From Bradyrhizobium cosmicum (lineage in GTDB: Bacteria; Pseudomonadota; Alphaproteobacteria; Rhizobiales; Xanthobacteraceae), in NCBI RefSeq assembly GCF_007290395.2, contig NZ_CP041656.2, positions 6,262,001 through 6,326,000 of the forward strand: DNA of 64,000 bases, read 5' to 3'. This document shows, piece by piece, positions 7,305-63,465 of this stretch (positions within the stretch are counted from its first letter, which is position 1; the number at the start of each line of letters is the position of its first letter). Made by a program: the position numbers and the translations under genes. The notes under the pieces were generated by a model. That model worked only from the letters and a program-made list of their open reading frames with translations. It ran no database searches and was not told where the DNA came from.

Positions 7305-7525
7305 ATCGTCCCCCACGCAACAACCAGGAATCCCCGCGACAACCTCCGGGTGCCATAATGGGCCCCGCATCCCTGATTTGCTGGGGTCTTATAATGCCTG
7401 CGAGACTAAATTGGCTTCAAAAAATATGATGAATCATTACGGAACCCGGGGAAAAGGCACCCCGGTAACGTATTGTTAACGTTATATTTCCGGCCCATGC
7501 GCCCACTTCGCGCGGAACCCTGCCC

Positions 7526-11961: not shown

Positions 11962-13722
11962 CTAATTCGCGGCAGCATCCTCGGCGGCGGGGGCAGTCGT
12001 GCCCGCGGCCTGCTTGATGTCGGCGACGGCGCGCTCGATCGTGGTGCGATAGCGCGCGCGCCGCGGCGTCACGCCATGGGTCAGCAGCGCGCGTCGAACC
12101 GCGGGTGATGCCCCGGTGATGAACAGCTTTATCCCTTGGCGGTGCGCCTTGGCGGCGACGCGGCCGAGCACGTTGGCCGCCGTCGAATCCAGGAAGGGGA
12201 CCGCGGCGAAATCGACCACGAAGGCCTTGCGCCCGTCGGCGACGCCGTCGAGCACGCTGCCGATGGCCGATGCCGCACCGAAGAAGAACGCGCCGGTGAT
12301 GCGGTAGACCAGCACATCGCGATCGACCGCGAGCGCGGGATCGTAAGGAACGCGCGTCCCATTGCCGTCATCGGGACGATCGTCGGCCACCAGCGGGGTG
12401 CGCTCCTCGATCCCGGTCATTTCCGACATGCGGTGAATGAACAGCACCGCGCCGAGCGCGAAGCCGACCAGAATGCCTTCGGTCAGATCACGGAAAACGG
12501 TGAGCAGGAAGGTCGCCAGCAGCACGACGGCATCGCCCCAGGAGGATCGCAGCAGCGTGGCGAATTCGTGCTTCTCCGCCATGGTCCAGGCCACCACGAC
12601 CAGCACGGAGGCGAGCGCGGCCAGCGGAATGTAGCTCGCCAGCGGCGCCGCGATCAGCATGAACAGCAGCAGGAAGACCGAATGCAGCATGCCCGCAAGC
12701 GGGCCGCGCGCGCCGGCGCGGATGTTGGTGGCGGTCCGCGCGATCAGGCCGGTGACACAAATGCCGCCGAACAGCGCCGAGCCGATATTGGCGGCGCCCT
12801 GCGCCACCAATTCGCAATTGGAGCGGTGACGGCGCCCGGTCATGCCGTCGGCCACCACGGCGGACAACAGCGATTCAATCGCGGCCAGCAGCGCGAACGC
12901 AATCGCATCCGGCAGCACCGCCGTCGCCTTCGCAAGCGAGAATGCCGGCAAGGCCGGCGACGGCAATTCGCGCGGAATGCCGCCGAAGCGCGAGCCGATG
13001 GTCTCGACCGGCAGCGACAGCACGCTACAGGCGATCGCCGCGAGCACCACCGCGATCAGGATGCCCGGCCAGGACGGCCGCCAGCGCCGCAGGCCGGCAA
13101 TGATGGCGATGCTGACGATCGCAACGGCCACGGCGGACGGATTGATGGTGGGCAGGCCCCCGGCCAGCGCGACGAGTTTCGGAACGAACTCGCTTGGCTC
13201 TTTCCCCGCGAGCGTGATTCCGCCGAGATCGCGAAGCTGGCTGGCGAAGATGATCACGGCGATGCCGGCGGTGAAGCCGACCGTTACCGGATAGGGAATG
13301 AACTTGATATAGGTGCCGATCCGCAGGAAGCCGGCGGCAACCAGAAGAAGTCCCGCCATCAGGGTGGCGAGGATCACGCCGTCGACACCGTGACGGTCGG
13401 CGGTCGCCGCGACCAGCACGATGAAGGCGCCGGCGGGGCCGCCGATCTGGAACCGGCTACCGCCGAGCAGCGATGCGATGAAGCCGCCGACGACGGCGGT
13501 GTAGAGACCCCGGTCCGGCGTCACGCCCGAGGCGATCGCGATCGCCATCGACAGTGGCAGCGCGACGATCGCGACCGTGAGGCCCGCGAACACATCGGCG
13601 CGGAGATCGGCAAGGCCATAGCCCTCGCGCCATACGGTCACGAGCTTTGGCAGATAGAGTTCGGTAAAGGTCGGCCGACGAAGCTGGTGCAGCTTGCCTG
13701 CGTGTTCGCCCGTGATGCTCAT
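11962..13722 (-). CDS. SulP family anion transporter with STAS domain, 586 aa
   Basis: Inner-membrane transporter of the SLC26/SulP family, probably for sulfate, bicarbonate or another small anion. The N-terminal domain begins with DLRADVFAGLTVAIVALPLSMA, followed by many membrane helices including SRFQIGGPAGAFIVLVA and IPYPVTVGFTAGIAVIIF. The C-terminal STAS domain has the regulatory FVVDFAAVPFLDSTAANVLG motif. The ATG at 13720-13722 is preferred over a TTG nine codons upstream. An XRE regulator lies just upstream on the same strand. Which anion is carried cannot be read from sequence. Confidence 0.9.
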   Translation of the reverse strand: MSITGEHAGKLHQLRRPTFTELYLPKLVTVWREGYGLADLRADVFAGLTVAIVALPLSMAIAIASGVTPDRGLYTAVVGGFIASLLGGSRFQIGGPAGAFIVLVAATADRHGVDGVILATLMAGLLLVAAGFLRIGTYIKFIPYPVTVGFTAGIAVIIFASQLRDLGGITLAGKEPSEFVPKLVALAGGLPTINPSAVAVAIVSIAIIAGLRRWRPSWPGILIAVVLAAIACSVLSLPVETIGSRFGGIPRELPSPALPAFSLAKATAVLPDAIAFALLAAIESLLSAVVADGMTGRRHRSNCELVAQGAANIGSALFGGICVTGLIARTATNIRAGARGPLAGMLHSVFLLLFMLIAAPLASYIPLAALASVLVVVAWTMAEKHEFATLLRSSWGDAVVLLATFLLTVFRDLTEGILVGFALGAVLFIHRMSEMTGIEERTPLVADDRPDDGNGTRVPYDPALAVDRDVLVYRITGAFFFGAASAIGSVLDGVADGRKAFVVDFAAVPFLDSTAANVLGRVAAKAHRQGIKLFITGASPAVRRALLTHGVTPRRARYRTTIERAVADIKQAAGTTAPAAEDAAAN

Positions 13723-53651: not shown

Positions 53652-54682
53652 GACGACTGCGTATTCTCGTGCTGATGCATCCGGACTTCATACCTCCGGA
53701 CTCCTCCGAGGGTTATACCCCTCAGGAAATCAACAACTGGAAGACGGAATACGACGTCGTCAGCACCCTGCGCGCGGCCGGCCATGAGGTCCGGGTCCTC
53801 GGTGCCCAGGAGGAAATCAGACCGGTCCGCGAAGCGATCGAGCAGTTCAAGCCGCACGTGGCCTTCACGCTGCTGGAAGAATTCCACAACAACGTCGCCT
53901 ACGACCAGCACATCGCCAGCTATCTCGAGCTGATGAAGGTCCCCTATACCGGCTGCAATCCGCGCGGCCTGATTCTGGCGCGCGGCAAGGATCTGTCCAA
54001 GACGCTGGTGCACCATCGCCGCATCGCGGTGCCCGCCTTCGCCGTCTTCCCGATGCGACGCAAGGTCAAGCGGCCGAAGCATCTTGCGCTGCCGCTGATC
54101 GTCAAGGCCCTCAACATGGATGGGTCTGCCGGCATTTCTCAGGCCTCCATCGTCGATACCGACGAAAAGCTCGCGGAGCGCGTCGCCTTCATCCACGATC
54201 GGAGCGAAACCGCCGCCATCGCAGAGCAATTCATCGAGGGACGCGAGCTTTATGTCGGCGTGCTCGGCAACAATCGCCTGCGCGTTCTGCCGGTGTGGGA
54301 GTTGAAGTTCGGCAGCATGGGCGGGCGCAGGTCACGCCACATCGCCACGGAGAAAGCCAAGCACGACACCGACTATCAGGAGAAGCTCGGCATCGTCGAC
54401 GGGCCGGCAAAAGATCTCCCGCCCGAAGTGACCGCCCGCATCCAGCGGGCCGCGAAACGCATCTACCGGGCGCTTGGCCTCGACGGCTACGCGCGGATCG
54501 ATTTTCGTCTTGCCGCCGACGGCACGCCGTATTTCATCGAAGCCAATCCCAACCCCGAGATTGCCAAGAGCCAGGAGTTCGCCACGGCGGCTCTCCATGC
54601 CGGGCTCAAATATCCGGCTCTCCTGCAGCGCATCCTGATGCTTGGAATCAGCCGGGCGAAGGCAGGGGTGTCGCTAGGCTGA
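53648..54682 (+). CDS. ATP-grasp ligase, D-Ala-D-Ala-ligase-like, 344 aa
   Basis: Joins a carboxylate to an amine with ATP. It begins RRLRILVLMHPDFIPPDSSE and has NNVAYDQHIASYLELMKVPYTGCNPRGLILARGKDLSKTL, the region equivalent to Ddl loops. The central ATP-grasp fold gives LPLIVKALNMDGSAGISQAS, AEQFIEGRELYVGVLG, and the Mg-binding FIEANPNPEIAKSQEF (Glu298, Asn300). No D-Ala-D-Ala carrier or mur genes are nearby, so it is not the housekeeping ligase. Coupled to the metallopeptidase upstream; its 3' end overlaps coxG by nine bases in opposite orientation. Confidence 0.82.
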   Translation: MRRLRILVLMHPDFIPPDSSEGYTPQEINNWKTEYDVVSTLRAAGHEVRVLGAQEEIRPVREAIEQFKPHVAFTLLEEFHNNVAYDQHIASYLELMKVPYTGCNPRGLILARGKDLSKTLVHHRRIAVPAFAVFPMRRKVKRPKHLALPLIVKALNMDGSAGISQASIVDTDEKLAERVAFIHDRSETAAIAEQFIEGRELYVGVLGNNRLRVLPVWELKFGSMGGRRSRHIATEKAKHDTDYQEKLGIVDGPAKDLPPEVTARIQRAAKRIYRALGLDGYARIDFRLAADGTPYFIEANPNPEIAKSQEFATAALHAGLKYPALLQRILMLGISRAKAGVSLG

Positions 54683-55129
54683 GGCCTTCGCGCTCACCAC
54701 CTCGGCAAACGATTTGAAGAACTCGCCCGCCAGCTTCGTCGCGGTCGAGTTGATCAGTCGCGCGCCGAGCTGGGCGAGCTTGCCGCCGATCTGCGCGTCG
54801 ACCTCGTAATGCAGTACCGTGACCTCCGTGCTTTCGGACTCCAGCCGCACGAGAGCACCGCCCTTGGCGAAGCCGGCGACACCGCCGGAGCCCTCGCCCG
54901 AGATGCGATAGGCGTTGGGCGGATCGAAATCGGACAACGTCACCTTGCCGCTGAACGTCGCCTTCACCGGACCGACCTTGAAGACCACCGTCGCCGTCAT
55001 CTCGTTCGGCGCGGTCACCTCGAGCGACTGGCAGCCGGGGATGCACTGCTTCAGCACAGCGGGATCGTTCAGCGCCGCCCAGACTTGCTCGCGTGAGGCG
55101 GGAATACGCTGGCTGTCGTTCATCTGCAT
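54674..55129 (-). CDS. coxG: CoxG, CO dehydrogenase accessory (SRPBCC fold), 151 aa
   Basis: Last gene of the cox cluster. START/SRPBCC-fold protein: IPASREQVWAALNDPAVLKQCIPGCQSLE is the family N-terminus, FKVGPVKATFSGKVTLSDFDPPNAYRISGEGSGG the middle, and GGKLAQLGARLINSTATKLAGEFFKSF the C-terminal helix. CoxG is implicated in membrane association of CO dehydrogenase or quinone delivery. Two candidate ATGs (55129, 55123); the first is used, SD weak. It is 10 bases after coxF and overlaps the convergent ATP-grasp gene by nine bases. Confidence 0.88.
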   Translation of the reverse strand: MQMNDSQRIPASREQVWAALNDPAVLKQCIPGCQSLEVTAPNEMTATVVFKVGPVKATFSGKVTLSDFDPPNAYRISGEGSGGVAGFAKGGALVRLESESTEVTVLHYEVDAQIGGKLAQLGARLINSTATKLAGEFFKSFAEVVSAKASA

Positions 55130-55139
55130 GATCGGTGTC

Positions 55140-55979
55140 TCACTCTCTGCTTGCTGACTGATTGGCGGCACGCTGGCCGCGCCGCCGTTCCCGGGTGATC
55201 TCGGCGAGAATTGACATCGCGATCTCCTCCGGTGTGATGGCGCCGAGATCGAGCCCGGCCGGCGCCTTGAAATCGTCGATCGCAGCGGCGCTGGCGCCTT
55301 CCGCGATCAGCTTTGCACGTAGCGACGCCATCTTGCGGCGGCTGCCGACGAAGGCGTGATAGTCGGCTTTGGTCGCGACCGCCGCGCGCAAGGCGGCTTC
55401 GTCGCCCTTGCCTTGTGTCGAGACCACGACGAAGCGCTTGGCGTCGTTGAGCTCACCCAGCTGGTAGCCATCGATGAGGGTGTCGGCATCCGGCTGCGCC
55501 GTGAGATCGGCGGCGGGCGCGGCGAACGTGACGTGATAGCCGAGCACGCGCGCCTGCGCCGCCAGCGACAGCGCCACCGGACTTGCGCCGAGAACGACCA
55601 GCGAGGGATGCGGCAACACCGGCTCGACGAAAATGTCCATGGTGCCCTTGCTCGGGCACATGTTGCTGGCAAAGCGGATGCCGTCGCGGCTCTCGCCGGC
55701 GCTGACGCCGAGCTCGGCCAGGAGATTCTCCGGCTGCACCGAGACCATGCGAGGCTCGGCGTCGGCGAGCGCCTCGCGCGCCGCCCTCAGTACCGCACCC
55801 TTGGCGCAGCCGCCGCCGATCCACCCCGCGACAATGGTGCCGTCGGCCGCAATGATCGCCTTGGCTCCGGCCTTGGCTGCGGTGACCGAAACGGTGCGCA
55901 CGACGGTCGCAAGAACGAAGGCGCGCTCGGCGGCCTTCATCCGCGCCACGAGATCCAGCACTTCGACTTGAGCGGTCAC
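55140..55979 (-). CDS. coxF: CoxF, XdhC-family maturation protein, 279 aa
   Basis: Maturation factor for the molybdenum cofactor of CO dehydrogenase. The N-terminal domain contains GTIVAGWIGGGCAKGAVLRAARE, with the Cys-containing motif of XdhC; the C-terminal Rossmann domain has LVVLGASPVALSLAAQARVLGYHVTFAA and the conserved TQGKGDEAAL. The start is GTG at 55979 with GAGGAGG upstream. It is 10 bases before CoxG and follows CoxE by about 10 bases, matching the coxE-F-G order of Afipia (Oligotropha) carboxidovorans. Confidence 0.9.
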   Translation of the reverse strand: MTAQVEVLDLVARMKAAERAFVLATVVRTVSVTAAKAGAKAIIAADGTIVAGWIGGGCAKGAVLRAAREALADAEPRMVSVQPENLLAELGVSAGESRDGIRFASNMCPSKGTMDIFVEPVLPHPSLVVLGASPVALSLAAQARVLGYHVTFAAPAADLTAQPDADTLIDGYQLGELNDAKRFVVVSTQGKGDEAALRAAVATKADYHAFVGSRRKMASLRAKLIAEGASAAAIDDFKAPAGLDLGAITPEEIAMSILAEITRERRRGQRAANQSASRE

Positions 55980-55989
55980 CGGTGCCTCC

Positions 55990-57198
55990 TCAGAGCTTCA
56001 TCAGATAGGGTTCGAGCGCGCGCAGGCTTTGCAGCGAGTTCGCGGGCGCGTAGAGATCGACATGCGGCAGTGCCGCTCTTATGCCCCTCGCCTCGGGCGT
56101 GTAGCCTTCCCAGGCCATCATCGGGTTGAGCCAGACGATGCGACGGCAGCGCCGCGACAGCACGGCCATCTCCCGCCCGAGCAAGGCGGCATCGCCAGTC
56201 TCGTAGCCGTCCGACACGATCATCACGCAGCTGCGCGAATGGATCACCCGCCGGGCGTGCCAGCGGTTGAAGGTCTGCAGGCTCTCGCCGATCTTGGTGC
56301 CGCCGCCTGCGCCCTGCGCCATGATCGAGAGCCGGTCGAGCGCGCGAGCGGCGTTCTTCTCTTTCATCGCATCGGAGACATAGGCAAGGCGCGTGTGAAA
56401 CAGGAACGCCTCGGCCTCGCGGAACTGGTCGAGCACGCCGTGGATGAAGCGCAGGAACACGGACGTGTACATGCTCATCGAGCCGGACGCATCGAGCAGC
56501 ACGATTAGCCGCAGCGGCTTGTCCTTGCGTTGCCGTTTCACCAGGCTGATCGGCACGCCGCCATGGCTGATGTTGCGATGAATCGTCCGCCGGAGATCGA
56601 GCCGGTAGCCGCGCCGGCGCGCCAGATCCCGCCGGGTCAGGCGTGTGCGCATCGCCCGTGCGAGCTGCGCTGCGGCCTCGTGGGCCTCTGCGACCTGATC
56701 GGGATCGCTGAGCATTCTAAAATCGACCTCGGCGATATTCTCCGCCGGCGAAGCACCTTCCATGCGGCCGTCGCCGGAGCGGCCTTCCGGCGCGTCGTCG
56801 GAGGACGGAAGCTGGTCGGTGATGGATTGGCTGCCGCCCTGCTCCGCTGCCGCATCCTGCAAGCTCTTCAGCGAGGGATTGCTGGCGCCGGGCGCAGAAC
56901 CGATGGTGCGGGAGCGCGAGCGCACGCGCTTGCCCAGCCAGAATGCATCGAACAGACCGTCGAACTTGTCCCAGTCGGATTTGCGCGCCGAGAAGAGGTG
57001 CTTGAACGCGGCGCGCAAGAGGCCGGGCCGCCCCGCGTAGCCTGACGACATCAGCGTCGCCGCGTCTTGCCCTTCGGCCAGTCCCACGCGAAAGCCGGCA
57101 TCGCGCAGGGTACGCAGGAAGGCGGCAAGCCTTGCAGAGACCAGGCGGGAGACCTGGTCGAGGTCGTCATATCCGGGGCTGGATCCGCAGCAACTCAT
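55990..57198 (-). CDS. coxE: CoxE, VWA-domain maturation protein, 402 aa
   Basis: Partner of the MoxR ATPase. The N-terminal helical part contains LVSARLAAFLRTLRDAGFRVG and a Ser/Pro-rich spacer; the von Willebrand A domain is in the C-terminal half and has the MIDAS site VLLDASGSMSMYTS, then GGGTKIGESLQTFNRWHA and VMIVSDGYETGD. In A. carboxidovorans, CoxE together with CoxD completes the Mo-Cu-S active site. The start at 57196-57198 overlaps the coxD stop. Confidence 0.92.
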   Translation of the reverse strand: MSCCGSSPGYDDLDQVSRLVSARLAAFLRTLRDAGFRVGLAEGQDAATLMSSGYAGRPGLLRAAFKHLFSARKSDWDKFDGLFDAFWLGKRVRSRSRTIGSAPGASNPSLKSLQDAAAEQGGSQSITDQLPSSDDAPEGRSGDGRMEGASPAENIAEVDFRMLSDPDQVAEAHEAAAQLARAMRTRLTRRDLARRRGYRLDLRRTIHRNISHGGVPISLVKRQRKDKPLRLIVLLDASGSMSMYTSVFLRFIHGVLDQFREAEAFLFHTRLAYVSDAMKEKNAARALDRLSIMAQGAGGGTKIGESLQTFNRWHARRVIHSRSCVMIVSDGYETGDAALLGREMAVLSRRCRRIVWLNPMMAWEGYTPEARGIRAALPHVDLYAPANSLQSLRALEPYLMKL

Positions 57199-58067
57199 GC
57201 GACCTTCCCCAACAAGCGCTGTGTCACCTCCGGCGTGACCCGCGCGCGGTCTTCATGCGTCTTCAAAAGACAGATCAGTGTCTCATGCACTGACTCGGGC
57301 GCATCGTTGAGATCGCGAATGTCGAGGCCGACGAGGGCCGCCGCCCAATCCAGCGTCTCGGCGACGCCCGGCACCTTGCGCAGCTCCTCCTTGCGTATAC
57401 CCTCGACCATGCGGGCGATCTGGAGCGACAGCGATGGGCTTGCGCCGTTGACCCGCGCCAGGATGATGCGGGTCTCGCGGTCGACGTCGGGATAGTCAAC
57501 ATAGTGATAGAGGCAGCGCCGGCGCAGCGCGTCGGACAGCTCGCGCGTGCCGTTCGAGGTCAGCACCACATGCGGGATGGTGACCGCAGGGATGGTGCCG
57601 AGCTCGGGAATCGAGACCTGGAAGTCGGACAGCAGCTCCAGCAGGAACGCCTCGAACTCGTCGTCGGCGCGGTCGATCTCGTCGATCAGCAGCACCGGCG
57701 CCTTCGGGCGGCGGATCGCGGCCAGCAGCGGACGCTCCAGCAGATACTTTTCCGAGAACACCTGGTCCTCGATGCTGTCGACGCCGCGATGCGCCTGAAT
57801 CGCCAGCAGCTGGCGCTGATAGTTCCACTCATAGAGCGCGGAGGACTGGTCGAGGCCTTCATAGCATTGCAGCCGGATCAGCTCGGTCGCGTGCACTTTG
57901 GCCAGCGCCTTCGCCACCTCGGTTTTGCCGACGCCCGCCTCGCCTTCGAGCAGCAGCGGACGCCGCAACAATTGCATCAGCGAGATCGCGGTCGCGAGAT
58001 CCGCATCGGCGATATAGCCCGATGCGGCCAAAGCTTGCGCGATCTCGTCCCGGCCTTTCATCGCCAT
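57195..58067 (-). CDS. coxD: CoxD, MoxR-type AAA+ ATPase, 290 aa
   Basis: A AAA+ chaperone that in A. carboxidovorans reconstitutes the CO-dehydrogenase active site with sulfur and copper. Walker A is LLLEGEAGVGKTEVAKALAK (residues about 36-55); Walker B is PVLLIDEIDRADDEFEAFLLELL; sensor 1 is VVLTSNGTRELSDALRRRCLYHYVDYP. Length is normal for this subfamily. Start at 58065-58067. Between it and CoxL lies a palindromic repeat, and it overlaps CoxE by 4 bases. Confidence 0.93.
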   Translation of the reverse strand: MAMKGRDEIAQALAASGYIADADLATAISLMQLLRRPLLLEGEAGVGKTEVAKALAKVHATELIRLQCYEGLDQSSALYEWNYQRQLLAIQAHRGVDSIEDQVFSEKYLLERPLLAAIRRPKAPVLLIDEIDRADDEFEAFLLELLSDFQVSIPELGTIPAVTIPHVVLTSNGTRELSDALRRRCLYHYVDYPDVDRETRIILARVNGASPSLSLQIARMVEGIRKEELRKVPGVAETLDWAAALVGLDIRDLNDAPESVHETLICLLKTHEDRARVTPEVTQRLLGKVA

Positions 58068-58074
58068 ACTCCTC

Positions 58075-58161
58075 CGTCATCGCGAGCGAAGCGAAGCAAT
58101 CCAGGAATGCCGCAGCAGAGAAAGTCTGGATTGCTTCGTCGCTTCGCTCCTCGCAATGACG
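58075..58161. repeat. CATTGCGAGC palindromic repeat, copy 4, inside the cox cluster
   Basis: GTCATCGCGAGCGAAGCGAA and its inverted end CGTCGCTTCGCTCCTCGCAA enclose CAATCCAGG/TCTGGATTG. It separates coxL from coxD, filling nearly all of the 100 bases between them. Confidence 0.9.
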
Positions 58162-58167
58162 ACAACA

Positions 58168-60588
58168 TTACGCCACCGCCCCGAGCTCCTTCGCGGCCTT
58201 CCAGTTGCGCCAGAAATCGTGCGGCATCTGGATGTGCGTGGACCCCAGGAAAGAGAACGCGTCGTTGACGGCGTTGGAGAAGGCCGGCACGCCGCCGACA
58301 TTCGGGCTTTCGCCGACGCCCTTGGCACCGATCGGGTGATGCGGCGACGGGGTGACGGTGAAGTCGGTCTCCCAATGCGGCGTCTCCACCGCGGTCGGCA
58401 TGAAGAAGTCCATGAACGAGCCGGTGACGACGTTGCCGACCTCGTCGTAGCGGATCTCCTGGCCCATCGCGATGGCGAAGGCTTCGGTGAGGCCACCGTG
58501 GACCTGGCCCTCGATGATCATCGGGTTGATACGGGTGCCGCAATCGTCGAGCGCGTAGAAGCGCCGGACCTTGTACACGCCGGTGTCGACGTCGATGTCC
58601 ATCACACAGAGATAGGCGCCGAACGGATAGGTCATGTTGGGTGGATCGTAGTAGCTCACCGCCTCCAGCCCCGGCTCCATGCCGGGGGGCACCGAGTTGT
58701 AGGCCGCCCAGCAGATATCCTTCATCGACATGAATTTCTCCGGCAGGCCCCGCACGCGGAAGCCGTCGATGTCGAACTCGAGATCGTCCTCGTGGACCTC
58801 GAGCTTGTAGGCCGCGATCATCTGCGCCTTGGCCTTGATCTTTCGCGCGGCCATGGCGATCGCGGCGCCCGCCACCGGCGTGGAGCGCGAACCGTAGGTG
58901 CCGAGCCCGTAAGGTGCGGTGTCGGTATTGCCTTCCTCGACCATGATGTTGTCGGCGGGAATGCCGATTTCGGTCGCGATGATCTGGGCCCAGGTGGTCT
59001 CATGGCCCTGGCCCTGGCTCTTGGAGCCGACCCGCGCGATCCCGGCGCCCGTTGGGTGCATGCGGATCTCGCAAGAGTCGAACATGGCGATGCCGAGGAT
59101 GTCGCAGTTCTTCGACGGCCCGGCACCGACGATCTCGGTGAAGAAGGAGATGCCGAGGCCCATGATCTCGCGGGTGTCGCCGCGCGTGAAGGCGGCGCGC
59201 TTGTCCGCCTGCTCCTTGCGAAGCGCGGCGTAGCCGGTGGTCTCCATCATCTTGCGCATGGCGGTGTGGTAGTCGCCGGAATCGTATTCCCACCCCAGAG
59301 CCGAGTGATACGGGAATTGCTCCGGCTTGATGAAGTTCTTCAGCCGCAGCTCGGCCGGATCTATCTTGAGCTTCTGCGCCAGAATATCCATGGCGCGCTC
59401 GATGCAATAGGCCGCCTCCGTGACGCGGAACGAGCAGCGGTAGGCGACGCCGCCCGGCGCCTTGTTGGTGTAGACGCCGTCGACAGCCAGATGCGCGGTC
59501 GGGAAGTCGTAGGAGCCGGTGACGATGTTGAAGAAGCCGGCCGGCCATTTCGACGGGTCGGCGCAGGCATCGAACGCGCCGTGATCGGCCAGCACGTGGA
59601 CGCGCAGCCCCGTAACCTTGCCGTCCCTGGTCGCCGCGATCTCGGTTGTCATGTGATAGTCGCGCGCGAACGAGGTCGAGGTGAGGTTTTCGATGCGATC
59701 CTCGACCCATTTCACCGGCTTGCCGGTGACGATGGAGGCGACCGCCGCACAGATATAGCCGGGATAGGCGCCGACCTTGTTGCCGAAGCCGCCGCCGATA
59801 TCGGGCGCGATCACGTGGATCTTGTGCTCCGGAATCTTCGCGATGAGCGCCACCACCGTGCGGATCACATGCGGGGCCTGGAAGGTGCCGTAGATCGTCA
59901 GCTCGCCCTTGATCTTGTCGAAGGAGCAGACGCACTGGCAGGTCTCGAGCGGAGACGGATGGGTGCGGTGATAGGAGATCATCTCCTTGATGGTGACCTC
60001 CGCCTTTCTGAAGGCGGCGTCTGTGAGGTCCTTGTCGCCGACGGTCCACTCAAAGATATGGTTGTCGTGCTTGCGCGGACCATGCGCGCCGGACATCTTG
60101 CCGACGAGGTCCTCGCGCAACACCGGGGCGCCGGCATCCATCGCCTTGAAGGGATCGACCAACGGCGGCAACGGTTCGTATTCGACGATGACCGCGTTGA
60201 TGCCGTCGTCCGCCGCATAGCGGTCGGTGGCGACGACGAAGGCGACCTCCTGGTTCTGGAACAGCACCTTGCCGTCGGCCAGCACCATCTGCACGTCGCC
60301 GGCGAGTGTCGGCATCCAGGCCAGATTGACGGTTTTCAGCGTCTCCGCGGTGATCACCGCGAGCACACCGGGGACCTTCAGCGCCGCGCTGTCATCGATT
60401 GTCTTGACGCGCGCATGCGGATGCGGCGAGCGGACGAAGTCGCCATGCAGCATGCCCGGCAGCTTGACGTCGTCGACGTAGTTGCCCCTGCCTTGCGTGA
60501 AGCGGATATCCTCGACGCGCTTGCGCTTGCAGCCCATGCCTTCGAGCGCGGCGGTGCGTTGTTCCCGCGTGGGAGTGAGGTCATTCAT
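58168..60588 (-). CDS. coxL: CO dehydrogenase large subunit CoxL (form I), 806 aa
   Basis: Carries the Mo-Cu active site that oxidises CO to CO2. The diagnostic form I loop AYRCSFR occupies residues 382-388 with catalytic Cys385, and form II enzymes differ here. Other parts: [61 protein letters not shown] (MoCo binding), and GAKGVGES, with the catalytic Glu about residue 760. The start is ATG at 60586-60588, overlapping the coxS stop. Length matches A. carboxidovorans CoxL (about 809). Confidence 0.97.
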
Positions 60589-61085
60589 TCTGCGGCCTCC
60601 TGGAATTCCACGCCGTTGATCTTGGCGCTCGCGTACTGGATTGCCTTGACGATGTTCTGGTAGCCGGTGCAGCGGCAGATGTTGCCGGAGATGCCCATGC
60701 GGATTTCCGGCTCGCTCGGCGAAGGATTTTCCTTGAGCAGCCGATGCGCGCGGACGATCATGCCGGGCGTGCAGAAGCCGCATTGCAGGCCGTGCATCAT
60801 GCGGAAGCCTTCCTGCAGCGCCGACAGCGTGCCGTCGGCATTGGCGATACCTTCCACCGTGATGATGTCGCTGCCGTCGGCCTGCACGGCGAACATGGTG
60901 CAGGATTTCACCGACATGCCGTCGATATCGACGGTGCAGGCACCGCAATGGGTGGTCTCGCAGCCGATATGCGTGCCGGTCAACTGCAGATTTTCACGGA
61001 TGAAATGCACCAGCAGCGTGCGCGGCTCGACGAGGCCTTCGACCTCGGCGCCGTTCACCTTCATGGTTACGTGTGTTTTTGCCAT
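60585..61085 (-). CDS. coxS: CO dehydrogenase small subunit CoxS, 166 aa
   Basis: Carries two [2Fe-2S] clusters that move electrons from the Mo-Cu site to FAD. The N-terminal cluster has Cys 42, 47, 50 and 62 ([16 protein letters not shown]); the C-terminal cluster has Cys 102 and 105 ([10 protein letters not shown]) and Cys 137 and 139 ([10 protein letters not shown]). The numbering agrees with A. carboxidovorans CoxS. The ATG at 61083-61085 follows GAGAGGA. It is cotranscribed with coxM and coxL. Confidence 0.97.
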
Positions 61086-61098
61086 CGATCCTCTCCCC

Positions 61099-61962
61099 TC
61101 ATTTCGCCCTGGCGGCGGCGCGCTGCAGCGCACGCGTCACCATGATGCCGCCGACATGTTTTCTGTATTCAACCGGACCGCGAGCATCGGCGGCCGGCGC
61201 CATGATCGCTTCCGCGGCTGCGGCCGCTTTCTTGAGCGTGGCAGCATCGAGACTTGTGCCGATCACCGCCTTGGCCGCGTCGGCGGCGAGCAGCGGCGTC
61301 TCGTGGACGTTGGTGAGCCCGATCGTGCAGCTCGCGACCTTGCCGCCGGCCATGGTCAGCACGACAGCGGCGGCCGCGGTCGCGTAATCGCCGACCTTGC
61401 GCTTGAGCTTTTCGTAGGCGTAGCCGTGGTCGGCGGCGAGCGCCGGGAACGAGACGGAGGTCAGGATTTCGCCGGGCTCAAGCGCCGTGAAGTAGGCCCC
61501 CTGGTAGAAATCCGCGGCCGGCAGGTCACGGGCGCCGCCGGGACCTTCGAGCCGGTAGCTCGCGCCCAGCGTCATCATCAGCGCCGGCATGTCGTTGCCT
61601 GGATCGCCATTGGCGACATTGCCGCCGATCGTGCCGCGGTAGCGAACCTGCGGGTCGGCGATGAGGAGCGCCGTCTCGTGCAGGATTGGCGCCGATCTGG
61701 CGATCTCGTCGGAGGCCAGCAAATCGTGCTGGGTGGTCATTGCGCCGATCACGACAGTATCGCCGTTGCGGCTGATGCCCTTCAACCCGGCGATGCCGTG
61801 CAGGTCGATCAGATGGGCGGGACTGGCGAGTCGCAGCTTCATCATCGGCACCAGACTGTGCCCGCCGGCCAGTGGCCGCGCATCCTCGCCGAGGTCTGCC
61901 AAGAGCTTGACGGCGTCGGCGACACTCGCCGGCCGGTGATAGCTGAATGAGCCCGGGATCAT
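61099..61962 (-). CDS. coxM: CO dehydrogenase medium subunit CoxM (FAD), 287 aa
   Basis: FAD-binding subunit that hands electrons to the quinone pool. The first FAD motif [13 protein letters not shown] is at residues 32-44; the second, TIGGN, at 111-115, continuing [15 protein letters not shown]. The C-terminal part [18 protein letters not shown] is typical. Two adjacent ATGs exist (61965, 61962); the second is chosen because AGGAG is six bases upstream. It starts the M-S-L operon part, about 310 bases after coxC. Confidence 0.96.
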
Positions 61963-62274
61963 CATCTCCTCCTCGTCGTCCTTTGCGCGTGACGGCGCGG
62001 ACGTTGACGGGAAAGGTCACTCCCGGCAGGGCGGCCCGCAATCATTCGGGCACAAAGAGGGGGTTTTTGCACGAATTGCGGGTGGGCACGCACGAATTGC
62101 GTCAGGGGTGGGGACGTATGGGCAGCTTGCTCCGCTGCAACCTCTCCCGCTTGCGGGGGAGGTCGGCGCGAAGCGCCGGGTGGGGGCTCCCTCCTCTTGG
62201 GGAATCTCTCTGCGGAGACACCCTCTCCCCGACCCTCCCCCGCAAGCGGGGGAGGGAGCGCACCTCCGATGCAG
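61963..62274. other. Intergenic region between coxC and coxM, 312 bp
   Basis: Presumed promoter and leader of coxM. About 61963-62138 is ordinary GC-rich sequence with no clear hairpin; 62139-62258 is a palindromic repeat. No gene seen. Confidence 0.6.
62139..62258. repeat. Palindromic repeat, CCTCTCCCGCTTGCGGG class, in the cox cluster
   Basis: The left unit is CCTCTCCCGCTTGCGGGGGA and the right unit is CCTCCCCCGCAAGCGGGGGA, separated by GCGCGAAGCGCC, CTCCCTCCTCTTGGGG and GAGACACCCTCTCCCC. Confidence 0.88.
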
Positions 62275-63465
62275 CTACGCCTGCCGCCGGTTCGCCAGAC
62301 CCAGCCGCGCCTTCACTTCGGCGATTTTGGCCCGGCTTACGGGAACCCGGTGCGGCGACGGGCCGTCGAGCTCGAGCACGGCGCCATCGCCCTCCTTCCG
62401 GACCAGCGCGACATGGGGGAGGGCGACGATATGGCTGCGGTGCACGCGGAGGAACAGCGAGGGATCGAGTTGCGCCTCGGCCTCCGAGATCGACCACGGG
62501 CACATCCGCTCGCGGGTGCCGTCATGGACGCGGGTGTAATGAGCGTCGGCGCGAACGCTGCGGACATTGGCGGTGTCTATGAAGTGCGTGCCATCGGCGC
62601 TCTCGACCGGAAGCCGCGGCGCGGGCGCGCGGGGCGGTTGACCAAGGCCACCGAGCGGCCCCAGCGGTCGCGCAGGTGCGGCAGCCGGCTCCGCAGCGGC
62701 AGGTTCAGCCGGAGGGGGAGCCGGGTCAGCGGCAATTAACGCCGGAGCCTGCCGCCGTGAATCGGGAACCAGAGACAACAAGAAGCCGGCCGCAATCACG
62801 AAGCACAGCACGGCGACCACGATCGAGAGAATTTGCTGCGACGCGGCAAGGCCGCCGACATGGTGGTGCGCCGCGCCCGTCAGCGGCTCGAAATGCATGC
62901 CCAGCATCGCCGTGTAGTGCATTCCCGAGACAGCCACGCCGAAAACGACCGAGCTGACGATCAGGCGAACGCCCTCCTGCTGCGCGAGGAAGGCGCGCAG
63001 GCCGCCATAGGCGGTGACGATCGCAACCAGAACCGACAGCAGCACCATGGTTCGGTCGTGCACGATGGCAAACGGCCCGGCGAGTCCGTGAATCCCGACA
63101 TAATGCATGCTGGCGATGCCGACGCCGAGCAGCACGGCCGAGGAGGCTACCCTTCTCAAAGACGGCTCGCCGATGGAGACAAAGAACAGTGAGATGCCGA
63201 CCACCAATGCGCAGATCAGGAATGAGATGATGGTGGGCAGGACGAGGTAAGCCGTGTCGGGCGGCAGCGGCGCGGCCAGCATGCCGACGAAATGCATGGT
63301 CCAGATGCCGACGGCCAGAAACGCGGCCGCACCCGCGAGCAGAACCCGGTTGCTGACGCCGGGCGTGTTGCGGATGCGAGCCGCAAGCGCAAAGCCGGTA
63401 TAGCCACCCAGACTCGCGATCGCCACAGAGAGCGCGACGAGATAGGGATCGTGTCCTTCGAACAT
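62275..63465 (-). CDS. coxC: CoxC-like MHYT/LytTR membrane regulator, 396 aa
   Basis: Inner-membrane sensor. The N-terminal two-thirds has seven helices with three MHYT-type motifs (WTMHFVGML, ASMHYVGIHG, SGMHYTAMLGM), whose His could bind copper and sense a gas such as CO. A Pro/Ala-rich linker (about residues 240-290) leads to a C-terminal LytTR DNA-binding domain (LRVHRSHIVALPHVALVRKE; RVPVSRAKIAEVKARLGL). This two-domain plan and its place before coxM match CoxC of A. carboxidovorans; alternatively CoxH. It may activate the cox promoter. Confidence 0.88.
   Translation of the reverse strand: MFEGHDPYLVALSVAIASLGGYTGFALAARIRNTPGVSNRVLLAGAAAFLAVGIWTMHFVGMLAAPLPPDTAYLVLPTIISFLICALVVGISLFFVSIGEPSLRRVASSAVLLGVGIASMHYVGIHGLAGPFAIVHDRTMVLLSVLVAIVTAYGGLRAFLAQQEGVRLIVSSVVFGVAVSGMHYTAMLGMHFEPLTGAAHHHVGGLAASQQILSIVVAVLCFVIAAGFLLSLVPDSRRQAPALIAADPAPPPAEPAAAEPAAAPARPLGPLGGLGQPPRAPAPRLPVESADGTHFIDTANVRSVRADAHYTRVHDGTRERMCPWSISEAEAQLDPSLFLRVHRSHIVALPHVALVRKEGDGAVLELDGPSPHRVPVSRAKIAEVKARLGLANRRQA

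Follow-up and report, generated by a model that had tools for sequence, protein, structure and literature searches.

Form I CO dehydrogenase genes of Bradyrhizobium cosmicum and a conserved repeat element before coxM that is a candidate operator for CoxC

The window analyzed here, a 64-kb stretch of the Bradyrhizobium cosmicum chromosome (NZ_CP041656.2, positions 6,262,001 to 6,326,000), contains eight minus-strand genes in the order coxC-M-S-L-D-E-F-G at 54674-63465, as delimited by open reading frames (ORFs) and Pfam domains. The locus raises the question of whether these genes encode a genuine aerobic CO dehydrogenase and, if so, how their expression might be controlled. The cluster very probably specifies a form I (Mo/Cu) enzyme with its maturation set, apparently under a membrane-bound CO-sensing regulator, CoxC, and three direct repeats before coxM are most likely the operator of CoxC. 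Clusters of this kind are well known and common in the genus; the useful part is the regulatory footprint, and the new detail is the conserved element together with its link to a published CoxC promoter.

Identity of the enzyme

In an NCBIfam profile search, CoxL scored 1443.3 bits against TIGR02416, for which the curated cutoff is 991.15, whereas CoxL stayed below the cutoffs of all 12 further NCBIfam models listed. The best solved structure was that of the Afipia enzyme (1n5w_B, 1481 bits), with a gapless alignment over residues 10-809 of the 812-residue translation in which AYRCSFR fell on identical letters. The AYRCSFR active-site loop is the form I signature, and M-S-L is the form I gene order; the window cluster has this order, AYRCSFR at residues 382-388 and a GVGES glutamate motif at 757-761.

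The CoxL protein might instead be a xanthine oxidase (XO)-family enzyme for another substrate (form II or of the aldehyde/xanthine type) that merely resembles CO dehydrogenase, given that a search of the genome with CoxL returned 20 matches, some being fragments of a single gene. We consider the tree of CoxL with 28 form I sequences and seven large paralogues from the same genome, which had been named beforehand as the refuting test. CoxL was placed within the form I group (support 95/98) and apart from the seven paralogues, among which the program warned of long branches. The motif YRGAGR was present in five of these seven and CRGAGI in one, with neither in the last, and AYRCSFR was carried by the window CoxL alone among the eight large subunits examined. 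The paralogue at 520 kb has the order S-L-M together with YRGAGR, and the next-best paralogue reached 680 bits against TIGR02416, which is below the cutoff. On the profile score, the 1n5w match, the motif and the tree, a form II or other XO-family identity was rejected, and we regard it as highly improbable. The form I assignment of the first-pass annotation was thus upheld.

The features of the cluster, in the direction of transcription, are as follows.

62275..63465, minus strand: coxC, 396 aa, MHYT-LytTR membrane regulator (Pfam, three MHYT domains and LytTR)
62101..62115, minus strand: GTC-N8-TGAC block, conserved, directly before the repeat element (information content)
62050..62096, minus strand: three direct repeats, candidate CoxC operator, starts at 62096, 62075 and 62056 (matrix score 61.7)
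61099..61965, minus strand: coxM, 288 aa, FAD subunit (PF00941, FAD_binding_5; PF03450, CO_deh_flav_C)
60585..61085, minus strand: coxS, 166 aa, subunit with two [2Fe-2S] clusters (PF00111, Fer2; PF01799, Fer2_2)
58168..60588, minus strand: coxL, 806 aa, form I Mo/Cu subunit (TIGR02416, 1n5w_B, AYRCSFR and tree; three XO-family Mo domains in Pfam)
57195..58067, minus strand: coxD, 290 aa, AAA+ ATPase (AAA_5; 73% identity to Afipia CoxD)
55990..57198, minus strand: coxE, 402 aa, VWA protein (PF05762, VWA_CoxE)
55140..55979, minus strand: coxF, 279 aa, XdhC family (PF02625, XdhC_CoxI; PF13478, XdhC_C)
54674..55129, minus strand: coxG, 151 aa, SRPBCC protein without a hydrophobic COOH-terminal tail (PF06240, COXG, 127 bits)

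The start of coxL, ATG 60588, overlaps the stop of coxS. This start and that of coxS at 61085 are likely and were preferred because they best fit the neighboring genes, with the longest-ORF starts overshooting; coxG probably starts at ATG 55129 (151 aa) rather than at GTG 55171 (165 aa). CoxC contains the motifs MHFV at 57, MHYV at 120 and MHYT at 182, with counterparts at 57/118/180 in Afipia CoxC, and all eight [2Fe-2S] cysteines of CoxS (42, 47, 50, 62, 102, 105, 137 and 139) have identical numbering in Afipia. The FAD motifs of CoxM are AGGHS at 33 and TIGG at 112, CoxD has a GEAGVGKT loop at 42 and LLIDEID at 126, and CoxE has DASGSM at 236. The first-pass annotation had reported the eight genes with their places, strand and domains, the Afipia gene order, the motifs of CoxL, CoxS and CoxM, and ribH as a flank, and all of these were recovered.

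The coxBCMSLDEFGHIK cluster on plasmid pHCG3 of Afipia (Oligotropha) carboxidovorans shares with the window the order from coxC to coxG, the catalytic residues and the cofactor motifs, with identities of 41% for C, 67% for M, 78% for S, 78% for L, 73% for D, 58% for E, 57% for F and 66% for G. The window cluster differs in being chromosomal, in having neither coxB before coxC nor H-I-K after coxG, in the tail-less CoxG, and in the putative operator, which is located before coxM whereas that of Afipia precedes coxB and hence coxC. In the predicted enzyme, CoxM-S-L, CO would be oxidized at a Mo-S-Cu site that CoxL holds through Cys385. The two [2Fe-2S] clusters and FAD would then carry the electrons onward into the respiratory chain. 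By analogy with Afipia, CoxD, CoxE and CoxF would build the Mo-S-Cu site and CoxG would help the enzyme dock at the membrane.

The repeat element between coxC and coxM

Between coxC and coxM, the minus strand carries the repeats TTCGTGC-21-TTCGTGC-19-TTTGTGC (62096-62050), with starts 21 and 19 bp apart and the first beginning 131 bp before coxM. We compared this region with those of the 80 top-ranking loci among named genomes, mostly of Bradyrhizobium and other Hyphomicrobiales; together with Afipia and the window, this gave 82 regions before coxM, each of 400 bp except that of L045 (383 bp). In 50 of the 82, two TTNNNGC words occurred with a spacing of 17-22 bp, and in 9 there were three such words; first-order Markov sequences predicted 3.06 and 0.06, respectively. 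A fixed-spacing matrix built from these scored at least 27 bits in 79 regions, whereas none of 410 shuffles exceeded -2.6. The misses were L083, in which the contig begins inside coxM and the upstream slice is meaningless, L031, whose spacer is one base shorter, and L096, the pHCG3 locus. The last two were both found by a flexible-spacing matrix, which placed its best match of the whole locus before coxM in 79 of the 80 loci, the remaining one being cut off; the highest other match kept in any of the 80 scored 7.2. The information content is 1.0-1.8 bits per column in repeats 1 and 2 and 0.6-1.4 in repeat 3; between repeats 1 and 2, seven spacer columns have 0.0-0.5 bits and are followed by a conserved CCGC (1.3-1.5).

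In the window, the element scored 61.7 and the next best place in the 64 kb scored 3.1. Given that the element was found only between coxC and coxM, CoxC should control coxMSLDEFG and not itself. CoxC, encoded just upstream, would bind the three repeats, and CO on its copper-loaded MHYT domain would release or switch the coxMSLDEFG promoter. Form I clusters on the chromosomes of Bradyrhizobium and other Hyphomicrobiales, such as that of B. barranii 1S5 (98% for CoxL), have the same eight genes and the same element before coxM, although coxG and its tail vary by locus and the coxC-coxM gap of the window is longer than many and contains palindromic repeats.

Presence of the element paralleled that of a CoxC-like gene on plasmids. 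It was detected in all nine plasmid loci with such a gene, with scores of 22-47, beside coxC/coxM or before coxB; these nine represent about six lineages apart from the training set, given that L116 resembles training loci and that L103/L117 and L113/L115 are near-identical pairs. Three form I loci lack an MHYT-LytTR gene, and all of them were at background (L105, 3.1; L118, -10.5; L119, -13.0), with L105 and L119 matching the LytTR part only and L118 showing no match. The matches in the Paraburkholderia locus (3.1 and -0.1) were taken as background and not counted.

The form of the element also resembles a known LytTR target. According to the available text of PMC11347149, RcoM1 of Paraburkholderia xenovorans, a heme LytTR activator, recognizes three direct repeats of the type TTCNNGCA, its consensus, and the spacing of about two turns is shared with the element described here. 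RcoM1 differs in being a heme sensor without MHYT, and the Paraburkholderia locus, with its other LytTR gene (L105), was at background with the matrix.

The Afipia CoxC promoter and the sign of control

In the portion of PMC11347149 available to us, CoxC of A. carboxidovorans is described as a repressor of PcoxB that acts via three direct repeats, with sites over the -35 region, and CO relieves this repression through the MHYT domain, with copper required. The window CoxC shares the MHYT-LytTR layout and the three MH(F/Y) motifs, whereas its predicted target lies before coxM and coxC is outside its own unit. That portion mentions that other alphaproteobacteria have CoxC orthologues in the neighborhood of cox genes, gives no operator for them and does not contain the word Bradyrhizobium. 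The accessible parts of PMC11347149, PMC4240915, PMC12596133 and PMC11771112 include no report of such an element before coxM.

When a matrix built without Afipia was run on 26 kb of pHCG3, the best match was at L096:7437 (26.1), the second was before coxM (15.7) and the next scored 4.5. The PcoxB fragment bound by CoxC begins one base after position 7437. Because this best match is the promoter bound by CoxC, we consider the repeats most likely to be a CoxC operator. A further candidate after Afipia coxH (L096:19689, score 1.7) was background and was dropped.

Several observations weigh against this assignment. The matrix behind the count of 79 of 82 had been trained on those very loci, the window included, and the plasmid loci alone lay outside the training. 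The window CoxC is 41% identical to the Afipia CoxC that was tested. Two loci are without coxC, L018 and L083 (which begins inside coxM), both at contig ends, and L018 has the repeat element with no coxC match; a 345-codon frame, by eye a candidate transposase, fills its contig end. At PcoxB, the matrix repeats are TTCATGC, TTGGTGG and TTTGGGC, a register unlike the published one (TTACCGCC, TTTGGGCA and TTGCGGCA, from the primers in the available text of PMC11347149), with one repeat shared. The published alteration of the first PcoxB repeat falls on the conserved CCGC before the second matrix repeat. Given this position of the alteration and the shared repeat, the published data do not appear to separate the two registers. 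Finally, a CTTG follows the third repeat in 26 of the 31 loci outside Bradyrhizobium, at 18 nt in 22 loci and at 19 nt in 4, a placement considered below.

These points bear on whether a regulator other than CoxC, or the core promoter, could account for the repeats. Binding of CoxC at the window element is a prediction, the published register at PcoxB differs, and a second conserved block, GTC-N8-TGAC, adjoins the repeats. Against such an alternative stand the nine of nine plasmid loci with CoxC-like genes compared with background in the three without, the LytTR-like form of the repeats, and the finding of the published CoxC promoter by the matrix, and we judge it to be unlikely. The preferred reading remains that of a CoxC operator.

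The flanks were studied in 79 rows, L083, L096 and L031 being left out; 31 were from outside Bradyrhizobium and 48 from Bradyrhizobium, the latter including the window and L061, which is titled Frankia. In this record (Frankia sp. RB7), CoxL is 98% identical to that of the window, and the sequence is probably from Bradyrhizobium under a wrong name. The GTC-N8-TGAC block precedes the element in both groups (GTC 1.0-1.8 bits, TGAC 1.2-1.8), and many other genera have GTCA-N7-TGAC, of the T-N11-A kind. The block could be the site of a second regulator or part of the CoxC site. Among the 48 Bradyrhizobium rows, CTTG was located at 18 nt in 6 and at 14 nt in 5. A CTTG at 18-19 nt, if it served as a -35 box, would suit an activator, in contrast to the repressor CoxC of Afipia, and both a repressor and an activator are candidates for the sign of control here. 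We also weighed, by eye, a sigma-54 interpretation of the bases that follow the third repeat, and abandoned it.

These observations can be joined in one scheme, which we offer as tentative and rather doubtful as a whole. The coxM element would be the ancestral operator through which CoxC controls form I CO dehydrogenase in alphaproteobacteria, and rhizobial CoxC, bound upstream of the -35 region, would act as an activator switched by CO or as a dual regulator. PcoxB would be re-registered to the 21/20-bp arrangement TTCATGC-TTGGTGG-TTTGGGC. Afipia would have acquired a copy of the element along with coxB, and its older copy before coxM would have decayed.

The cluster in relatives and in the genome

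A survey of 147 genomes of the genus, with completeness of at least 95% requested, yielded form I CoxL above the TIGR02416 cutoff in 53 and weaker relatives in all 147. Because 53 of the 147 pass this cutoff, such clusters are, judged by the profile, ordinary in the genus. The survey in PMC12596133, as far as its available text goes, scores coxL in all 181 Bradyrhizobium strains; given the difference between 53 and 147 in our own counts, that survey may mix form I with form II.

Among the 80 loci, coxM, coxS and coxL were present in all, coxC in 78, coxD in 73, coxE in 72, coxF in 71 and coxG in 55, the missing C, D, E and F genes being those of loci that end there. Neither coxB nor coxK was found in any of the 80, of which 5 stop at coxC or close to it and 12 have less than 4 kb after coxF or no coxF; the coxI query mostly matched coxF itself and was not used for these loci. 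Of 12 plasmid stretches, pHCG3 alone contained coxB and coxK, with L104 starting inside the regulator gene and thus unable to show coxB. Because of these two results, coxCMSLDEF, often with G, appears to be the usual conserved cluster and Afipia the exception.

The absence of coxB, coxH, coxI and coxK from the window, as stated in the first-pass annotation, held, and the search for them elsewhere in the 7.27-Mb genome yielded relatives of coxI only. There was no match for coxB or coxK in the whole genome, in a search that had no positive control; the same queries do match pHCG3 in a separate tblastn. For coxH, no second MHYT-LytTR gene was found in the genome, with one weak match (27%) to the MHYT part; in Afipia OM5, coxH of pHCG3 (L096:18473-19673) is annotated as two overlapping MHYT-domain pieces. 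Relatives of coxI were at most 35% identical, the best being in a second cluster at 2.765 Mb (L109:7076-12499), in which coxG-, coxS-, coxM-, coxD-, coxE- and coxI/XdhC-like genes are consecutive. No CoxL-like gene was present within the 18 kb read around that cluster.

We predict from the gene set that the strain oxidizes CO and may gain energy from it. In favor of such a gain, the genome encodes one RuBisCO large subunit, a 486-aa product containing GGLDFTKDDENINSQPF, a stretch that we take to be typical of true RuBisCO. Against it stands CoxG, which is without the Afipia-type tail: Afipia CoxG has 205 aa and a 17-residue stretch with a mean hydropathy of 2.1, whereas the maximum in the window CoxG is 0.65 (windows from residue 140 on). 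A tailed CoxG was sought elsewhere in the genome, and the second PF06240 gene, at 2.765 Mb, also ends without a tail. In the 55 loci with a coxG match (tblastn, 1e-6), the protein was short in 42, had an intermediate tail in 8 and a long tail in 3, and the match was partial in 2; no match was found in the other 25, of which 15 had 2.5 kb read after coxF. In the accessible part of PMC4240915, an Afipia coxG mutant on CO has a doubling time of 149 h compared with 21 h. A tail-less CoxG is in keeping with CO serving as a supplementary substrate and not for fast growth, without being evidence of it.

The missing tail, together with the missing coxB, coxH, coxI and coxK, might also indicate a cluster that is silent or decaying, as might the 15 loci with sequence after coxF and no coxG match and the coxM of a Roseivivax plasmid that lies in two pieces around a Tn3 transposase. 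The catalytic residues and the operator are nevertheless retained in the window, the losses of C, D, E and F among the 80 loci coincide with locus ends, and Afipia coxG mutants still grow on CO, albeit slowly, according to the same part of PMC4240915. Decay therefore seems distinctly unlikely, and a functional cluster remains the preferred reading.

On the plasmid of Roseivivax sp. THAF197b (L104:438-7506), coxM is split after approximately residue 36 into parts 6.2 kb apart, and a recombinase accompanies the transposase between them. The CoxC element is still located beside the MHYT gene, of which the 3' end only is covered.

A complete ribH lies upstream of the window cluster in the same direction. 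Downstream of coxG, the place of coxH-coxI-coxK is taken by a convergent unit, consisting of a 342-aa gene with a PF15887 match and a 3' partner, that ends at 54682, 9 bp inside the end of coxG. The coxC-coxM gap measures approximately 310 bp here; many relatives have 140-200 bp at this place, and in others it reaches 450 bp. Palindromic repeats with a CCCGC(T/A)(T/A)GCGGG core occupy 62130-62270, with two copies in this gap (62146 and 62239), and occur also at 12692, 29808, 47575, 52384 and 52500 of the window.

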